A stretch of 7,243 nt of DNA from contig CAOXUF010000100.1 in assembly GCA_948560485.1 (NCBI GenBank), positions 1-7,243 of the forward strand, given 5' to 3'. How positions within the stretch are numbered: the first letter of the stretch is position 1; each line of letters starts with the position of its first letter. The translations under genes and the position numbers were made by a program. The stretch comes from an uncultured Eubacterium sp. Its GTDB lineage: Bacteria > Bacillota_A > Clostridia > Lachnospirales > Lachnospiraceae. The notes beneath the pieces were generated by a model. That model saw only the letters and a program-made list of their open reading frames with translations. It had not been told where the DNA came from and searched no databases. Below, piece after piece: positions 644 through 7,243 of the stretch.

Positions 644-930
644 CACAATATGAGCAGGAGACTGTAATCAATTTCAATGCAGAGGATCCGCATGCGACAG
701 TTTACACCCGTGATAAAGCTGTTATGAAAAAACTTGACGCATTAGTTACCGAGTTCCCAGAGGTCTTTCAGTGCATAGGCAAAACGGATATCGACAAGAC
801 CTATACAATGTCAAAATCACGTGTTAAATACCATAAGCTGAGAAGGATATCTGGGGCAAAGGGAGAGCAGTCAAGAGAAGTGATGAAAAAAGTCATCTTA
901 AAACAGCAAGTGTTACTAATAGTCCGTTGA
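634..930 (+). pseudogene. Small conjugative-element protein, start lost and C-terminus altered
   Basis: The frame reads IRLTQYEQETVINFNAED, then TVYTRDKAVMKKLDALVTEF and DIDKTYTMSKSRVKYHKLRR before ISGAKGEQ. From memory this matches a small protein of roughly 90-100 residues, function unknown, that recurs in Firmicute conjugative transposons and begins MRLTQYEQET. Here the expected initiator codon is ATT (634-636). The next in-frame ATG is 724, which would remove the conserved N-terminal third. The frame is 98 codons from ATT to TGA (928-930). Its last residues, roughly LKQQVLLIVR, do not look like the family, and the stop lies inside the controller operator. The restriction cassette therefore probably replaced the natural 3' end. 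A shortened 68-residue product from ATG 724 is conceivable but has no clear ribosome binding site. Confidence 0.6.
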
Positions 931-942
931 CTTATAAGTAAC
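912..942 (+). promoter_or_regulatory. Paired C-box operator upstream of the controller gene
   Basis: The left box TACTAATAGTC (914-924) and the right box GACTTATAAGTA (929-940) are separated by CGTT. Each is close to the GACTnnnAGTC pattern known for restriction-modification controller proteins. The right box contains a perfect 10-base palindrome, ACTTATAAGT (930-939), but its spacer is four bases instead of three. The reverse complement of 912-924 matches the box at 1187-1199 in 12 of 13 positions. The box-CGTT-box layout closely resembles, from memory, the Esp1396I operator with its 4-bp CGTG spacer. It should bind two C-protein dimers and give self-regulation of the gene at 975. Confidence 0.8.
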
Positions 943-954
943 GTGATGGATAAT
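927..954 (+). promoter_or_regulatory. Promoter of the controller gene
   Basis: TTGACT (927-932) is a good -35 box and lies inside the right C-box. GATAAT (949-954) is the best -10 box, 16 bases downstream. Transcription would start near 960, leaving about 14 bases before ATG 975 with GGAGG inside that leader. The overlap of the operator with the -35 box fits repression at high C-protein levels, with the left box available for activation at low levels, as known for this family. Promoter use is inferred, not shown. Confidence 0.65.
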
Positions 955-974
955 GATATGTGGAGGTATTTTCT

Positions 975-1181
975 ATGATTGCTGAAAAAGTAGGACAGCG
1001 AATTAAACAACTTCGCAACGAGCAGGGATTGAGTCAAGAAAAGCTTGCTTTAAAAGCTGAACTAGATAGAACGTATTTAGCAGGAGCTGAATTGGGGAAA
1101 AGAAATATTTCACTTAAAAGTTTAGAGAAGATAGTAAATGCTCTGAATGTTTCTTTTGGTGATTTCTTTAAGGGAATATAA
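975..1181 (+). CDS. Restriction-modification controller (C) protein, HTH Xre-like
   Basis: This 68-residue protein is a small dimeric helix-turn-helix regulator that sets the timing of a restriction-modification system. Its N-terminal helix contains GQRIKQLRNEQGLSQEKLA. The recognition-helix region, LDRTYLAGAELGKRNISL (about residues 30-47), and the closing SLEKIVNALNVSFGDFF are hallmark C-protein features, and the length matches the family. ATG 975 is chosen because GGAGG sits at 962-966 with eight bases of spacing. An upstream in-frame GTG at 960 would overlap that site. The gene sits between two sets of C-boxes, one before it and one before the nuclease gene, which is strong context for the role. 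Family members usually read AGIERG or SGIERG where this one has AGAELG, so the recognition or dimer contacts may differ. Confidence 0.93.
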   Translation: MIAEKVGQRIKQLRNEQGLSQEKLALKAELDRTYLAGAELGKRNISLKSLEKIVNALNVSFGDFFKGI

Positions 1182-1183
1182 CT

Positions 1184-1221
1184 GTTGACTATAAGTAACA
1201 ATTAAGGTATAATTATGGAGG
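1184..1221 (+). promoter_or_regulatory. C-box overlapping the promoter of the nuclease operon, with RBS
   Basis: GTTGACTATAAGTAAC (1184-1199) contains a single C-box, GACTATAAGTA (1187-1197), matching GACTnnnAGTC in seven of eight defined positions. It overlaps a -35 box TTGACT (1185-1190). TATAAT (1208-1213) follows after exactly 17 bases, a near-consensus promoter. Transcription would begin close to 1220, inside or beside the ribosome binding site GGAGG (1217-1221), seven bases before ATG 1229, so the leader is very short. No clear second box lies upstream. A dimer bound here would sit on the -35 box, suggesting repression rather than activation of the nuclease gene. That is inference. Confidence 0.8.
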
Positions 1222-1228
1222 TACAGAC

Positions 1229-2485
1229 ATGAAATTGATGATTCAAGACCCCACCTATGCAGCAAGTATGAGGCTTGGAGAAGCGCTGATTGACGCATGT
1301 AATAAGGGGCAAGACGGAGCTGGAGCTTTTGCATTTGCAGAAGAGAATGGAATTGATTTGTTTTTGGGTGATCCAGACTTTAGCGATTACATTAAAACTC
1401 ATAAGTATGAGTTGGTTGTCGGTACTGATTCAATTACTGATCCGAAGGCGGTTACAAGGTTAAGAGCATATTGCAAACTTTACCATAATTTAACTGTATA
1501 CGGTTATGTTCATGATTCAAAAAAGTATTTATTTCATCCTAAGATTACTTGGTTTGAAACAACGGCAGGTGGCCTGTCTATTATTGGATCGGGCAATTTG
1601 ACTGAGCGTGGGTTGTATCATAACATCGAAATGTATTCATATAATGAGTTACATAATACAGACTTCACAAAGCTTAAAATTGACTGGCAGGATTGGTTAG
1701 ATTATTCGATCAATAATAATCTTATATTTGATATTAATGATCCGATTATTGATCATGCCGTTAATCTAAGTGCTGCAAAAAAAGCAAAATCATTTTCGGC
1801 ACCTAAATCTTCGGCAGGAAAGATGGTTGCTCCGGATTCTTCACTATTGGCGTTGTATAAAACCCAGCCCCAAACTACATCTGTACGCAAGCCTGTTACT
1901 GTGTCTATGCTTAGAAAGACTAAACCTAAAAAGTCATCAGCCATAATAGCAACACCGATTCCTACCGTAGAACCAGTAGTAGTTGCACCAACAATTAGCC
2001 CAGTTTGGACAGTTTCTACTACAGACAGAATTTTGGTGGCTGAAATTCCAAAAGCAAGCACTAGATGGAAGCAGATTAATTTTGATAAAGCATCTTTTCA
2101 AAACTATTTTGGAGCTACGCCTCGGGGTACTAGTGGTACCTATAGGATTCTTCTGAAGAACGTTGATTCAGCAGGGACATTGGGGGCTACAGAATCAAGA
2201 CCAAGTGTTTCGGTAGCTAGCCACAATTGGCGGTTTGAAATAAGTGCGGCTAGTGGACTTCCTTATCCGAGCGGAACGAACAGACCTTATGTTGTTTTCT
2301 CGGAGGCATCTACAAGATCGTTCCTTTATGAATTACTGATGCCGGGAGATTCAAGATACTTCGAAGTAGATAGTTTTGTAAAATTATGGAAAAGAGCCAA
2401 TGGTGTGTCTGGCATTGCTAGATTTATCACAGATGTAAGCACCATTAAACCAAGCACTCCAAGCCTTGGGCTCTGGAAAGTTTAA
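1229..2485 (+). CDS. PLD-family restriction endonuclease (BfiI/NgoFVII-like)
   Basis: This 418-residue protein is the likely DNA-cleaving subunit. The N-terminal domain (about 1-170) carries one phospholipase D-type half-site: H103 and K105 in FHPKITWFE, then N123 in GSGNLTERGLYHNIE and E134. Known enzymes of this type, such as BfiI, dimerise to form one active site and cut without a metal ion. From memory the BfiI residues H105 and K107 fall at almost the same place. Residues about 180-262 are a Ser/Thr/Pro/Lys-rich linker, longer than I recall for BfiI. Residues about 265-418 form a separate domain with SVSVASHNWRFEI and RPYVVFSEASTRSFLYELL, probably the B3-like specificity domain seen in such enzymes. 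ATG 1229 has GGAGG seven bases upstream. The gene lies between the C protein and the methyltransferases, which start two bases after its stop. Target sequence cannot be read from the protein. Confidence 0.85.
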   Translation: MKLMIQDPTYAASMRLGEALIDACNKGQDGAGAFAFAEENGIDLFLGDPDFSDYIKTHKYELVVGTDSITDPKAVTRLRAYCKLYHNLTVYGYVHDSKKYLFHPKITWFETTAGGLSIIGSGNLTERGLYHNIEMYSYNELHNTDFTKLKIDWQDWLDYSINNNLIFDINDPIIDHAVNLSAAKKAKSFSAPKSSAGKMVAPDSSLLALYKTQPQTTSVRKPVTVSMLRKTKPKKSSAIIATPIPTVEPVVVAPTISPVWTVSTTDRILVAEIPKASTRWKQINFDKASFQNYFGATPRGTSGTYRILLKNVDSAGTLGATESRPSVSVASHNWRFEISAASGLPYPSGTNRPYVVFSEASTRSFLYELLMPGDSRYFEVDSFVKLWKRANGVSGIARFITDVSTIKPSTPSLGLWKV

Positions 2486-2487
2486 AT

Positions 2488-3822
2488 ATGGATACAAGTG
2501 TTAAGACAGTCCATTATCTAGGCAGTAAAGCTCGTATGTTAACTCCAATCAAGAAATATATAGATGAGCTTACCCATGGAAATGGAAGAATATGTGATTT
2601 GTTTTGTGGCTCAGGAGTAGTATCTGAGTATTTGCTTAAACAGTATGACGTATTAGCAGTAGATATTCAAAACTATTCAAAAGTGTACTGTGAAGCACGT
2701 TTGTTGGGATTGCCAAAAGATTTCGATTATAAAAGAATTATAGCCAGAATAAAAGAATCCGAACCAAGAAGAACCAACTTGATAGTTTACAAGCCTATTC
2801 TTGTTTATGAGGACGAGTGTAGAGACTCATTATTATCCAGGGAGTTGGAGCCAATCTATGAGGTTATTGAAAAAGGATCTTTGTATGCCTACTTAAATAA
2901 TCTGCCTTATAGTGAAACGGATCTTTCCCCTTCTCTTGAAAAAGCTTTTGCTATGGTTAAAGACACCAAGGGAATAGATTTACAATCTTTGGATTCAATT
3001 ATCACGCGTTATTATGGAGGATTGTACTTTTCTTTTAAACAAGCTATTGATATTGATGCAATTTCTTCATATGCCTTTGCACAAAATGAAAGGGTTAAGA
3101 ATGCAATGTTGGCAGCACTTATGGGTGCTACAACTGACGTGGTAAATACTATTGGAAAGCAATTTGCTCAGCCATTAAAAGTAAGAAATAAAGATGGTTC
3201 TTTAAAAAAGAATCTGGCAAAAAAAATTTTGTCTGATAGAGAATTAGATGTTTTTGAACAATTTGAAAAATGGATGCAATACTATATAGAATTACCGCGA
3301 AATACGCATGATTTTGAAATAATCTGTGATGACTATATAGAAGTTTTGAAAAGATTGCAGCCTGGTCATGTAGAGGTTATTTATGCCGATCCGCCTTATA
3401 CGCGATACCATTATAGCCGTTATTATCATATTCTTGAGACTATTTGCTTGCACGATAATCCACAAATATCGACTACATTTCCTAATGGGAAAGGTGGATT
3501 AAGTAGAGCAATTTATCGAAACGATAGACACCAATCTCCTTTTTGTATTAAGAGCAAAGCGCCACGGGCATTTGACGATTTATTCATGTATGCAAGCAAA
3601 GCTCGAGCTTCAATTGTACTTTCATATTCTCCATTTGATGCAAATAGTGGAGCTACACCGAGATTGCTTTCAATTGAAGATATTATAAGTATTGCTCAGA
3701 AGTATTACAAAAATGTGTCGGTAGTATCACCGGGACAGTTTATGCATAGTAGGTTTAATAGGCAGGATAATAATTACGAAATTAACTACGAAGCAGAAAG
3801 ATTAGTTATATGCAGAAGGTGA
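2488..3822 (+). CDS. DNA adenine methyltransferase, alpha-class (D12-like)
   Basis: This 444-residue enzyme should methylate an amino group, most likely adenine N6, from S-adenosylmethionine and protect the nuclease target on one strand. Motif X is YLGSKARMLTPI (10-21). Motif I, DLFCGSG, is at 37-43. The catalytic motif IV, DPPY, is at 301-304, followed by TRYHYSRYYHILET. Motif I before a large target-recognition region and then motif IV is the alpha-class order, as in Dam. At 444 residues it is much longer than Dam-type enzymes (about 270-290). The extra length lies mostly between motifs I and IV (about 70-290), where specificity should reside. It starts two bases after the nuclease stop, with GGAAAG at 2475-2480 as a modest ribosome binding site, so translation is probably coupled. 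Its end overlaps the next gene. Codons are AT-rich like the rest of the cassette. Confidence 0.9.
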   Translation: MDTSVKTVHYLGSKARMLTPIKKYIDELTHGNGRICDLFCGSGVVSEYLLKQYDVLAVDIQNYSKVYCEARLLGLPKDFDYKRIIARIKESEPRRTNLIVYKPILVYEDECRDSLLSRELEPIYEVIEKGSLYAYLNNLPYSETDLSPSLEKAFAMVKDTKGIDLQSLDSIITRYYGGLYFSFKQAIDIDAISSYAFAQNERVKNAMLAALMGATTDVVNTIGKQFAQPLKVRNKDGSLKKNLAKKILSDRELDVFEQFEKWMQYYIELPRNTHDFEIICDDYIEVLKRLQPGHVEVIYADPPYTRYHYSRYYHILETICLHDNPQISTTFPNGKGGLSRAIYRNDRHQSPFCIKSKAPRAFDDLFMYASKARASIVLSYSPFDANSGATPRLLSIEDIISIAQKYYKNVSVVSPGQFMHSRFNRQDNNYEINYEAERLVICRR

Positions 3823-4949
3823 ATTTAGCAGTGAGAATAGCAAAAAAATCGTTTCTTGAGAAGAAGATATTAAATCCACGTGTTTTAATACTGGGAGACA
3901 ATCAAAAGGTATTAAAAGACATTAAGGATACATATGAGCATCAAGTTAGCTTGATATATATTGATCCACCGTATAATAGAGGTGATGATTTTAAGTTTTA
4001 TAAAGATACTAAGAATCATGACGATTGGTTAGAAGAGATGCGCACAACTATCATAGAATTAAGAGAGTTTTTGAGTGCTGAAGGAAGTATATGGATATCT
4101 ATTGATGACTCCGAAATGGCATATTTAAAAGTATGTTGCGATGAAATTTTCGGTAGAGAGAACTTTGTATCTACAATAGTTTGGCAAAAAAGAAATACAC
4201 GGGAAAATAGAAGAATATTTTCTAACAATCACGAGTATGTTCTTGTATATGCAAAAGATATAAATAAATTTAAAAAGAAAAGGAATTTACTGCCTGCAAC
4301 TCAAAAGTTATTGGATAGATATAAAAATCCGGACAATGATACTAGAGGGTCCTGGCAATCGGTTACATTATCAGTCCAAGCTGGACATGCCGTTAAATCT
4401 CAGTTCTATACTATTGTTTCGCCAACAGGCAAGAAGCATAAGCCACCGAAAGGAAGATGTTGGATTTACAATGAGGAGAGGATGCAAGAAGAGATTAAGA
4501 ATAATAATATTTGGTTCGGAAGTGATGGCAACGGAGTTCCAAGATTAAAAAAAATACTGGATGTTTCAAAGCTTGGTATGGTTCCGGAAACCCTTTGGAA
4601 TGTTGAATTTGCCGGTTCAACCAAAGAGGCCAAGCAAGAACTTTTGGCTTTAGAAATATATGATGAAGATGTATTTGATACACCGAAGCCAGAGCAGCTG
4701 ATATATAGAATTATGCAAATAGCTACAAATGAAAACGATTTGGTGCTAGATTGCTTTATGGGTTCCGGCACAACAGTAGCGGTTGCTCACAAATTTGGAA
4801 GAAACTATATTGGAATTGAATTAAACAAAAAGGTATATAAATATGCTTCAGAAAGATTAAAAAAAGTATGTAATGGAGAAAGCGGAGGAATATCTTCAGC
4901 ACTAGTATGGAACGGCGGTGGGGAATATTTATCCTGCGAATGGAAGTAA
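3810..4949 (+). CDS. DNA amino-methyltransferase, beta-class (type III Mod-like)
   Basis: This 379-residue enzyme is a second adenine-N6 or cytosine-N4 methyltransferase, of a different permutation from its neighbour. Motif IV, IDPPYNRGDDF, comes first (51-61), followed by SIWISIDDSEM (93-103). A recognition region follows (about 125-265, including KNPDNDTRGSW and PPKGRCW). Motif X is around TPKPEQLIYRIM (291-302), and motif I, FMGSGTT, is at 316-322 with IGIEL after it. That order is beta-class. The closing WNGGGEYLSCEWK resembles the usual Mod C-terminus, so the protein looks complete, although it is shorter than typical type III Mod (over 600). No type III Res helicase is nearby, so it probably serves the PLD nuclease. 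The ATG overlaps the previous gene by 13 bases, suggesting coupling. GTG 3819 or 3831 are weaker alternative starts. Confidence 0.9.
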   Translation: MQKVNLAVRIAKKSFLEKKILNPRVLILGDNQKVLKDIKDTYEHQVSLIYIDPPYNRGDDFKFYKDTKNHDDWLEEMRTTIIELREFLSAEGSIWISIDDSEMAYLKVCCDEIFGRENFVSTIVWQKRNTRENRRIFSNNHEYVLVYAKDINKFKKKRNLLPATQKLLDRYKNPDNDTRGSWQSVTLSVQAGHAVKSQFYTIVSPTGKKHKPPKGRCWIYNEERMQEEIKNNNIWFGSDGNGVPRLKKILDVSKLGMVPETLWNVEFAGSTKEAKQELLALEIYDEDVFDTPKPEQLIYRIMQIATNENDLVLDCFMGSGTTVAVAHKFGRNYIGIELNKKVYKYASERLKKVCNGESGGISSALVWNGGGEYLSCEWK

Positions 4950-4977
4950 ATAGTAATTTATAGGAAATGGAAGTGGT

Positions 4978-5387
4978 ATGACAGAGTTTTGTCTTAACAC
5001 TTTTTTCTTGATTGTAAAGGTTGCATGGGGAAGCGGAAAAGAAGATGACTATAAAAATTATATCAAAAAGGAAATGGCGCAGGAGGATCTCAGTGATGAG
5101 TCATCTGTAGTTGTGATTGGTGGAACGCCAGAGATTAGCCAACCATTGGCAATTATGTATGAGGGAGAAAAGGCAAAAGTGGTTCCCACTAATGCAATGG
5201 CTAATGATAGATTGATGAGGAGGGCAGGTCTGACAGCCTGCGTATGCGGGATGGGAAGATCACCGTGCGGGACAGCAACGGGCAGGAAGACGAATGCACA
5301 ATCCATGTGCAATCAAGTGCGGGAGGCATTGCGCCTCCTGCATTTTTTGCTGTTGATCTTATCCCCACAGTCGAGAGATCACGATAG
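4978..5387 (+). pseudogene. Unrecognised decayed reading frame(s) after the RM cassette
   Basis: A frame opens at ATG 4978, four bases after GGAAG, and reads plausibly as protein to about 5220 (for example DDYKNYIKKEMAQEDLSDES and PLAIMYEGEKAKVVPTNAMA). Beyond that it becomes Cys/Arg/Leu-rich and unconvincing up to its stop at 5461-5463. From about 5211 a different frame looks better, with LRMRDGKITVRDSNGQEDE and APPAFFAVDLIPTVERSR ending at TAG 5385-5387. This suggests one frameshift near 5215, or two unrelated fragments joined. An intrinsic terminator lies inside the second part. I do not recognise either protein. Neither resembles a restriction-modification component. Confidence 0.35.
5319..5348 (+). 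terminator. Intrinsic terminator downstream of the RM cassette
   Basis: GCGGGAGGC (5319-5327) pairs with GCCTCCTGC (5333-5341), nine base pairs with one G-T pair, around an ATTGC loop. The right arm is followed after one A by T6 (5343-5348). This is the first good plus-strand terminator after the second methyltransferase, so the cassette transcript that starts near 1220 could end here. Confidence 0.75.
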
Positions 5388-5702: not shown

Positions 5703-6356
5703 TTGAAAAACAAAGGGAAAATTATCAGGAATTTTTTGATCGGAGTCATCATGGTTTCATTGGGAACAGCGTTTGACCCGGAGAAAGATCAGGAGTATCG
5801 GCCTTTTCTGGTAGTGATAGCTTTTGCGACGCTAATATTCTTCCTTGTGGAGATCAACCAGTTTAATTTGAAAAGGCATCATAAAACAATCTTCTTTTTC
5901 TTTATTTCACTGACGGAGATGCTGTGGCTGGGCTGGGTTGGCGTAACATTAAGCTGGCAATTCACTCTGGGCTTTATGGCCGCAGTCTGTGGTACATGGT
6001 TTCTGATAAATCTCGTCTGGGTATATCTGCACCAGCGGAAAGTAGTATCACAGTGGAACACGGCATATGCAGCCTGGAAGTCCGGGGGCAGCGCAGAGGA
6101 CTATATGAAAGAGATGGAACAGTGTGAGGCCAAGATAAAAAACGATACCGGCATTATGCTTGTATATGGTGGTATTCCCCTGAATGATTATATTTCGGTA
6201 CATAAAATCTACTTGCTGAAAGAAATGCAACGGAATCAGGAGTGTCTTGCCCTGCTGAAAGGTATTCAGCCAAAAATCAAAAATCAGGAAGTGCAGAAAT
6301 CCCTTTCGGAAGTAGAAGCAGAAATAACAAAGACGGAGGCTGAACTACATGGATAA
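5703..6356 (+). CDS. Four-helix membrane protein of unknown function
   Basis: This is a 217-residue integral membrane protein that I do not recognise. Hydrophobic segments lie at about 7-24, 34-53, 61-83 and 86-109. A hydrophilic tail follows (110-217), ending in a charged, probably coiled-coil stretch around KSLSEVEAEITKTEAELHG. The start is TTG 5703, chosen because AAGAGG (5688-5693) lies nine bases upstream and MKNKGKIIRNFLIGV is a natural basic-then-hydrophobic beginning. No upstream in-frame ATG competes. The next reading frame begins eight bases before its stop (ATG 6349), so the genes look like an operon. Codons are richer in CTG, CCG and CGG than in the RM cassette, suggesting a different origin. 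Membrane proteins in small arrays are sometimes immunity factors for secreted toxins, but nothing here shows that directly. Confidence 0.75.
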   Translation: MKNKGKIIRNFLIGVIMVSLGTAFDPEKDQEYRPFLVVIAFATLIFFLVEINQFNLKRHHKTIFFFFISLTEMLWLGWVGVTLSWQFTLGFMAAVCGTWFLINLVWVYLHQRKVVSQWNTAYAAWKSGGSAEDYMKEMEQCEAKIKNDTGIMLVYGGIPLNDYISVHKIYLLKEMQRNQECLALLKGIQPKIKNQEVQKSLSEVEAEITKTEAELHG

Positions 6357-6712
6357 AATAGGGCAGCTTTTAGATAGAGGCTTTTGGGGTGGGATTGTAA
6401 GAGAGATCCAGAACCTCTATACACAGTCCGGCACAAAAATGATTCTTGTGAGTGCTTTGATGGAGAGTATTTATACAATGATACAATGGTCTGCGAATGG
6501 GCACCTGATACAGTTGCCTATGATCCGGATGCGTCCATTTCATAGACGTGGCAGAGGAAATGATGAAAAAATATGATGTGCCGCTCCCGGCAAGTGAGAC
6601 GATCCAGTTTCTTATAGCCCCAAAAGACTTTTCTCTTGGAAAACCTTTTGAAGGATTGCGTCTTTCGTATCGGTCTAAAACTGTAAGTAATAGTGAAAGG
6701 ATGAAAATATGA
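6349..6712 (+). pseudogene. Unrecognised gene broken by two frameshifts
   Basis: Three frames follow one another without much overlap. The first, from ATG 6349, gives MDKIGQLLDRGFWGGIVREI and continues to about 6455. The second takes over with FDGEYLYNDTMVCEWAPDTV and AYDPDASIS, ending at a TAG at about 6543-6545. The third continues with IDVAEEMMKKYDVPLPASET and FLIAPKDFSLGKPFEGLRL to TGA 6710-6712. Joined, they give a roughly 120-residue acidic soluble protein. Two single-base shifts, near 6456 and near 6542, would repair it. Only the first frame has a start, overlapping the upstream gene by eight bases. The next gene overlaps its end by four, so it sat in one operon with its neighbours. 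I cannot name the family. Sequencing error is possible, though two errors so close together would be unusual. Confidence 0.6.
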
Positions 6713-7243
6713 AAAAATGTACCATAGGACTGTTTTCAAAAATTATTACATTCCTGGTTTTTGCGGTTTTCTTCATTCCGCTGACGGGTATCTGCTTTTA
6801 CATAACATTCCTCTATCCCCATGCAACACAGGAAGAAAGGCTGCTCTTTCTGGCAGGGGTCCCCATGTTTGGCGGCCTTGTTGCCTTTGCTATTTACCGT
6901 ACTTTTTATTTAGGGCTGGTCTGGGTGGAATATGATATGGAAAATGTGATCTTTCACTACTCACGCAAAGAAGGGTATCGGTTCCGGTGGGCGGAAATAC
7001 CGGGGAACCGGATGCAGGTTGAACGGGCAGGCGGCGGATACGTTTTCTATATCCAGGAGAATGGGCGGCAGAGAAAAATCCCTCTGAACCGTCTTTCAAA
7101 AGGCTATAAAGATTTTGAAAAAACACTGGAGCAGACGGGAGTGCTGTACCGGATCGGCGTAAAGACACAGGAAGAATTTAAGAGGGATGCGGAACGGGTA
7201 TTTGAGCAGTATCAAAAATACCGTGAAGCACATCCGGGTTCCA
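6709..7243 (+). CDS. Membrane protein with cytoplasmic domain, partial at window end
   Basis: ATG 6709 is followed by 178 codons with no stop before the window ends, so the C-terminus is missing. AAAGG (6696-6700) lies eight bases upstream. The protein begins MKKCTIGLFSKIITFLVFAV and has two hydrophobic segments (about 9-35 and 44-72). A beta-rich region follows (about 73-132, with VWVEYDMENVIFHYSRKEGY and FYIQENGRQRKIPLNRLSKG), then a helical, charged stretch to the edge. Two helices followed by such a region recall bacterial PH-like membrane proteins, but this is a resemblance only. It overlaps the broken gene before it by four bases. High CGG, CTG and CCG use contrasts with the RM cassette. 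Function unknown. Confidence 0.8.
   Translation, partial: MKKCTIGLFSKIITFLVFAVFFIPLTGICFYITFLYPHATQEERLLFLAGVPMFGGLVAFAIYRTFYLGLVWVEYDMENVIFHYSRKEGYRFRWAEIPGNRMQVERAGGGYVFYIQENGRQRKIPLNRLSKGYKDFEKTLEQTGVLYRIGVKTQEEFKRDAERVFEQYQKYREAHPGS

Follow-up and report, generated by a model that had tools for sequence, protein, structure and literature searches.

How a restriction nuclease of the phospholipase D (PLD) type comes to stand beside two methyltransferases of unlike architecture, and how such a set of genes is controlled, are the questions raised by a stretch of 7,243 nucleotides (nt) from an uncultured Eubacterium sp. of the Lachnospiraceae (contig CAOXUF010000100.1, assembly GCA_948560485.1), hereafter the window. 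The original prediction placed a controller protein (C), a PLD nuclease (R) and two methyltransferases (M1 and M2) here in tandem. The four open reading frames (ORFs) were verified, and ORFs, Pfam and PADLOC matches and motifs agree on this assignment. Fold, motifs, operators and the recurrence of the R-M1-M2 trio likewise bear out a PLD restriction-modification cassette that is BfiI-like and C-associated and whose two methyltransferases differ in architecture. We have good confidence in a type IIS-like system, an estimate that covers the restriction-modification part; it probably cuts unmarked foreign DNA with the nuclease and protects its own DNA with two adenine methyltransferases. The genes and their principal motifs are as follows.

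975..1181, + strand: C, controller protein, 68 amino acids, helix-turn-helix (HTH); ORF with HTH_3 and PADLOC matches, GGAGG just 5'
1229..2485, + strand: R, predicted PLD/B3 restriction endonuclease, 418 amino acids; ORF, family, alignment and fold model
1535..1543, + strand: HPK of the PLD active site of R (residues 103-105), invariant in the alignment
2009..2482, + strand: predicted B3-like DNA-binding domain of R, residues 261-418
2488..3822, + strand: M1, predicted D12 alpha-order adenine methyltransferase, 444 amino acids; motifs and Pfam
3388..3402, + strand: DPPYT, motif IV of M1
3810..4949, + strand: M2, predicted beta-order adenine methyltransferase, type III Mod-like, 379 amino acids; motifs, families and structure
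3963..3977, + strand: DPPYN, motif IV of M2

The gap between R and M1 is 2 nt and M1 overlaps M2 by 13 nt, which gives R-M1-M2 the look of one operon. The small HTH protein upstream of R matches HTH_3 (Pfam, E 1.2e-15) and Control_protein (PADLOC, E 1.4e-19); an alternative GTG start at 960 was judged less likely. Besides R, M1 and M2 the window holds no ORF longer than 217 amino acids.

The nuclease R

By sequence R is only weakly a PLD protein (PLDc_2, E 4.3e-4 and 20.6 bits, under the 27-bit cut-off). The active-site residues H103, K105, N123 and E134 do not vary among the 26 sequences of an alignment (the window R and 25 relatives), and the predicted fold combines a PLD domain carrying HxK, N and E with a C-terminal B3-like domain, as laid out in BfiI. 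Structure searches matched R to the NgoAVII R-protein (4rct, Foldseek E 4.3e-5) and its C-terminus to 6c5d, a domain of H. pylori LlaJI.R1. The NgoFVII Pfam domain is present in P0112, a 40 % relative, and the R of an Acinetobacter plasmid falls just below its cut-off (23.4 against 23.8 bits). PF18243, the BfiI DNA-binding domain, gave no match in the window R at E <= 1; the BfiI-like protein of another locus, L021, scores E 2.1e-70. A specificity module shared with E. coli LlaJI proteins was also considered and found no profile support, as the C-terminal profile of R does not match these proteins.

On the fold and the BfiI and NgoAVII precedents, R would dimerise through its PLD domains to form one active site, which is probably metal-independent, and the B3-like domain would read an asymmetric site. 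Metal independence is described for LlaKI, a FokI isoschizomer (PMC4392985). More than 40 putative PLD restriction enzymes are already in REBASE (PMC4081073), so that members of the present group may well be catalogued there as putative.

The likeness of R to the NgoAVII protein raises another reading, namely that the system needs a further protein, such as an ATPase as in NgoAVII and CglI, encoded elsewhere. The match to 4rct argues for this, and the NgoAVII R-protein does not cut without its ATPase (PMC4267653). However, the window contains no ATPase-sized ORF other than R, M1 and M2, and hence no partner ATPase gene beside R, and inspection by eye found none beside the trio in the loci L004, L019 and L020. 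We regard such a requirement as improbable.

Two methyltransferases and the recurrence of the trio

M1 and M2 differ in the order of their motifs. In M1, motif I (FCGSGV, residue 39) precedes motif IV (DPPYT, residue 301) by about 260 amino acids, and the protein matches D12 at E 3.9e-15; in M2, motif IV (DPPYN, residue 52) precedes motif I (FMGSGT, residue 316), and PF01555 is matched at E 1.5e-53. Type III Mod families give M2 its best scores (E 1.3e-95), and it resembles the Mod structure 6k0w (E 2.3e-45). The fold search with M1 returned nothing at E <= 0.001, its first entries being 7m6b (E 1.0e-3) and T4 Dam (E 3.7e-3). As to METHYLTRANSFERASE chemistry, DPPY occurs in M1 and M2 and likewise in their aligned relatives, and both proteins match adenine-N6 families best. 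The suggestion that the two enzymes might differ in chemistry is thus not supported, and adenine-N6 methylation is expected on both strands. BfiI's own methyltransferases are cytosine-N4 enzymes, and both methyltransferases of the BfiI-like locus L021 carry SPPY.

By analogy, M1 and M2 likely each mark one strand of the site read by R. Type III Mod enzymes methylate one strand only, which fits the need for a second methyltransferase beside M2. BfiI has two independent methylases acting on opposite strands (PMC4267653); one methyltransferase per strand, as predicted for the window, is therefore not a new design in itself. Pairs of different chemistry are known from type IIS systems of H. pylori, m6A (N6-methyladenine) with m4C (N4-methylcytosine) in HpyAII and m6A with m5C (5-methylcytosine) in HpyAVI (PMC3936762).

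The three genes recur together, which shows that the arrangement is not due to chance. R-M1-M2 stand in the same order in two distant Bacillota genomes, G479 and G632, and an Acinetobacter pittii plasmid has them too, with M1 turned to the other strand. Identities to the window proteins are 42, 38 and 32 % for R (G479, G632 and plasmid, respectively), 44, 44 and 36 % for M1, and 57, 54 and 50 % for M2. Co-occurrence was further assessed among the listed clusters, 120 of 608 for R and 120 of 1572 for M1, identical length of the longest contig serving only as a proxy for a shared contig, with 120 shifted controls. The listed R and M1 clusters share 24 exact lengths (control mean 1.03, maximum 4), and in these 24 pairs the R and M1 distances correlate at 0.906, a value reached by none of 2000 permutations. 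For R with M2 seven lengths are shared (mean 1.10, maximum 4), as for M1 with M2 (mean 1.13, maximum 5). Recurrence of the trio and co-divergence of R and M1 together indicate that R-M1-M2 is a unit.

These figures also bear on whether M2 belongs to it. M2 might instead derive from a type III system, act independently at a motif of its own and merely accompany a restriction pair of R and M1. Two observations weigh against a trio in this respect: contig sharing supports M2 less well than it does R with M1, and on an Acinetobacter lwoffii plasmid a 46.7 % homologue of M2 has a DEAD/DEAH helicase gene as its neighbour, the arrangement known from type III systems (contexts of M2 homologues were examined in two of 72 records, A. 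lwoffii and A. pittii). On the other side, M2 adjoins R-M1 in the window, G479, G632 and the A. pittii plasmid, is the most conserved of the three, and overlaps M1 in the window; a partial M2 (P0303) lies on a contig of length 8967, the same as that of locus L001. The sequences of two other loci, L002 and L003, stop short of where M2 would be seen. An independent M2 seems quite unlikely, and R-M1-M2 is taken below as one system.

R is rare among the genomes sampled. Surveys with R found it in 1/397 genomes at E 1e-8 and in 3/398, 1/38, 1/19, 1/3 and 1/295 at E 1e-10; the draws are samples that may overlap, each tally includes the centre genome, and only G479 and G632 were new beyond the survey centres. 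Scanning genome contigs gave 15 pattern matches, which came down to three loci, while viral contigs searched with R, M1 and the R alignment gave pattern matches of which none was confirmed as a relative. Phage records contained no match to R (E 1e-3) or to the R of G479 (E 1e-5); M2 matched 388 of them, every one below 60 % identity. Among plasmid records, R found two, the R of G479 three (one Salipiger) and M1 39, the genomic context of four further ones of these 39 being examined. E. coli genomes gave no match to the Acinetobacter cassette.

Operators and control by C

Upstream of both C and R the window carries a promoter-like sequence overlapped by candidate C-boxes.

914..924, + strand: C-box O_L, TACTAATAGTC, 5' of C, within the 29-nt double-box match; 2 mismatches to GACTTATAGTC
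929..940, + strand: C-box O_R, GACTTATAAGTA, across part of the C promoter's -35
927..954, + strand: C promoter, TTGACT - 16 nt - GATAAT, 10/12 consensus
1187..1197, - strand: single C-box, nearly identical to inverted O_L, across part of the R promoter's -35
1185..1213, + strand: R promoter, TTGACT - 17 nt - TATAAT, 11/12 consensus

C precedes R in four of seven loci (the window, L001, L002 and L003). Three of these are near-identical, so that L002, in which C is 63 % identical, is the real comparison. At 914-942 the window has a match to the 29-nt double C-box of L002, with 3 mismatches (0/200 shuffles), and the centre of the match fits both the AhdI form AGTCCN2GGACT (PMC5282649) and the PvuII-type form GACT-tat-AGTC (PMC4824078). 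Each -35 hexamer falls within a C-box. Of the 18 promoter-like sites in 850-5100 that of R is the best, and the C promoter ties with four others. As regards promoters of M1 and M2, such sites are no commoner in this region than in shuffles (18 versus 15.4, standard deviation 4.2).

The single box before R (R-box) matches inverted O_L with 1 mismatch in 13 in the window (2/5000 shuffles), none in L001 (0/5000) and 2 in L002 (8/5000); the 3 mismatches in L003 are not significant (242/5000). An earlier version of this test used too narrow a region, outside which the L002 box fell, and gave 2, 0, 2 and 294 of 300 shuffles for the window, L001, L003 and L002. The box pattern is short by itself, 32 of 200 shuffles containing it at <=2 mismatches. 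The position is constant, the -35 hexamer at the R-box starting 44 nt 5' of the R start codon in all four C-bearing loci. Two occurrences of the GACTTATAGTC core (<=2 mismatches) inside M1, at 2735 and 2904, were taken as chance.

Operator centres were counted by hand on the assumption that transcription starts 7 nt 3' of the -10. This puts the centre of O_L at about -42, as for an activator, and those of O_R and of the box at the R promoter at about -27 to -28, as for a repressor. From these positions we infer that C would activate and then repress itself and would repress the R-M1-M2 operon. C would thus bind the double box at its own promoter and the inverted single box under the -35 of R, and probably hold the operon down while accumulating. 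The description of the system as C-controlled accordingly gains operator evidence at both promoters, with a geometry that suggests repression of the operon; repression of the R promoter, its direction read from operator position, has about an even chance of being correct. A separate single operator has a precedent in Esp1396I, there before the methyltransferase gene (PMC3758141, PMC4824078).

C might alternatively be a classical delayed activator of both C and R from the C promoter, the single R-box being weak or serving fine-tuning. The double box 5' of C in the usual PvuII/AhdI form, and the co-directional C and R genes with a gap of 47 nt, favour this over repression of the operon. However, in the window R has a near-consensus promoter with its own C-box, this box recurs at the same place in four of four C-bearing loci, and the methyltransferase genes lie 3' of R, so that protection would be delayed too unless they have promoters of their own. 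Delayed activation is a serious possibility, though one short of an even chance.

C is optional to the trio. No C-like protein was seen by eye before R on the same strand in G479 and G632 (ORFs of at least 45 amino acids), and the HTH gene 5' of the cassette in the Acinetobacter plasmid looks like the antitoxin partner of the RelE/ParE toxin gene that precedes it. In L002 (8001-10430, Mediterraneibacter-labelled), one stop interrupts the R frame and that of M1 is split, C and its operators being still present; this cassette looks decayed.

In the widest reading, which we put forward tentatively, the trio defines a recurrent, so far unnamed PLD/B3 class, in which a D12 (Dam-like) enzyme would mark one strand and a type III Mod-derived enzyme the other, and in which C, in Lachnospiraceae-type loci, would repress the whole R-M1-M2 operon through a single -35 operator, setting the dose of the whole system rather than delaying the nuclease. 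If the proposed explanation is right, a BfiI-type nuclease has here been combined with adenine methyltransferases unrelated to those of BfiI-type systems, one of which apparently came from a type III system, and the cassette would be a candidate source of new metal-independent restriction specificities. With it one could also ask whether a controller protein can serve simply to limit the dose of an entire restriction-modification operon.

The surroundings of the cassette were also inspected. An Rfam match to the group II intron family D1-D4-3 lies 5' of C (569-726, 48.8 bits, E 1e-7) and suggests a mobile-element neighbourhood. A short ORF at 724-930, without a Pfam match, resembles by eye the ORF 5' of C in L003 (7496-7678), and may be akin to small ORFs of Lachnospiraceae conjugative elements. 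An interrupted reading frame at 100-300, of which a 29-residue piece gave no Pfam match, is presumably similar to the start of an IS256-family transposase, judged by eye. Downstream, the ORFs 5703-6356, which looks membrane-bound by eye, and 6709-7243 gave no significant Pfam or PHROGs match.

Comparison with known restriction-modification systems

Among the titles and abstracts listed in searches for this gene combination, REBASE lying outside them, none describes it. The closest known systems include BfiI/BmrI (type IIS, ACTGGG), which share the PLD and C-terminal B3-like domains and two methyltransferases, one per strand in BfiI (PMC4267653). Unlike these, the window R lacks a PF18243 match and the cassette has a C gene; the BfiI-like loci L021 and L022 have the order M-M-R rather than R-M1-M2, and the SPPY of L021 is replaced by DPPY in the window. 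NgoAVII, CglI and NgoFVII also have an R-protein with PLD and B3-like domains, but NgoAVII and CglI combine it with a single C5 methyltransferase and an ATPase (PMC4267653), whereas the window has two predicted adenine methyltransferases (D12 and PF01555) and no adjoining ATPase gene.

With the LlaJI family the window shares a 34 % identical relative of M1, in an LlaJI-type system on an E. coli plasmid, and the likeness of the R C-terminus to 6c5d. LlaJI itself has McrBC-like restriction subunits and two 5mC (5-methylcytosine) enzymes (PMC1459862); no McrB- or McrC-like ORF occurs in the window. In L011 (E. coli plasmid, 5821-11649) the neighbours of a LlaJI-family system are two genes annotated as DNA adenine methylases, in contrast to LlaJI with its two 5mC enzymes. 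A GCGTA specificity, guessed from a supposed link between H. pylori HpyAXIV and LlaJI, proved wrong, HpyAXIV being HP1517, a type IIG enzyme (PMC3936762). On a Paenarthrobacter plasmid (L005, 3004-8462) two methyltransferase genes neighbour the gene of a B3-like protein that stands alone (profile E 2.7e-17, among 14 proteins), and an AAA ATPase gene lies on the other strand; this may be a further split restriction system.

M2 is closest to type III Mod in families and structures, but at 379 amino acids it is shorter than its 512-residue-class homologue in L024, and the window has no ORF for a Res helicase-nuclease subunit. In its control region the cassette resembles PvuII, AhdI and Esp1396I, with a C protein and a double GACT/AGTC operator, and Esp1396I also in having a separate single operator; the single operator of the window precedes R and the downstream methyltransferases together, rather than a methyltransferase gene alone.
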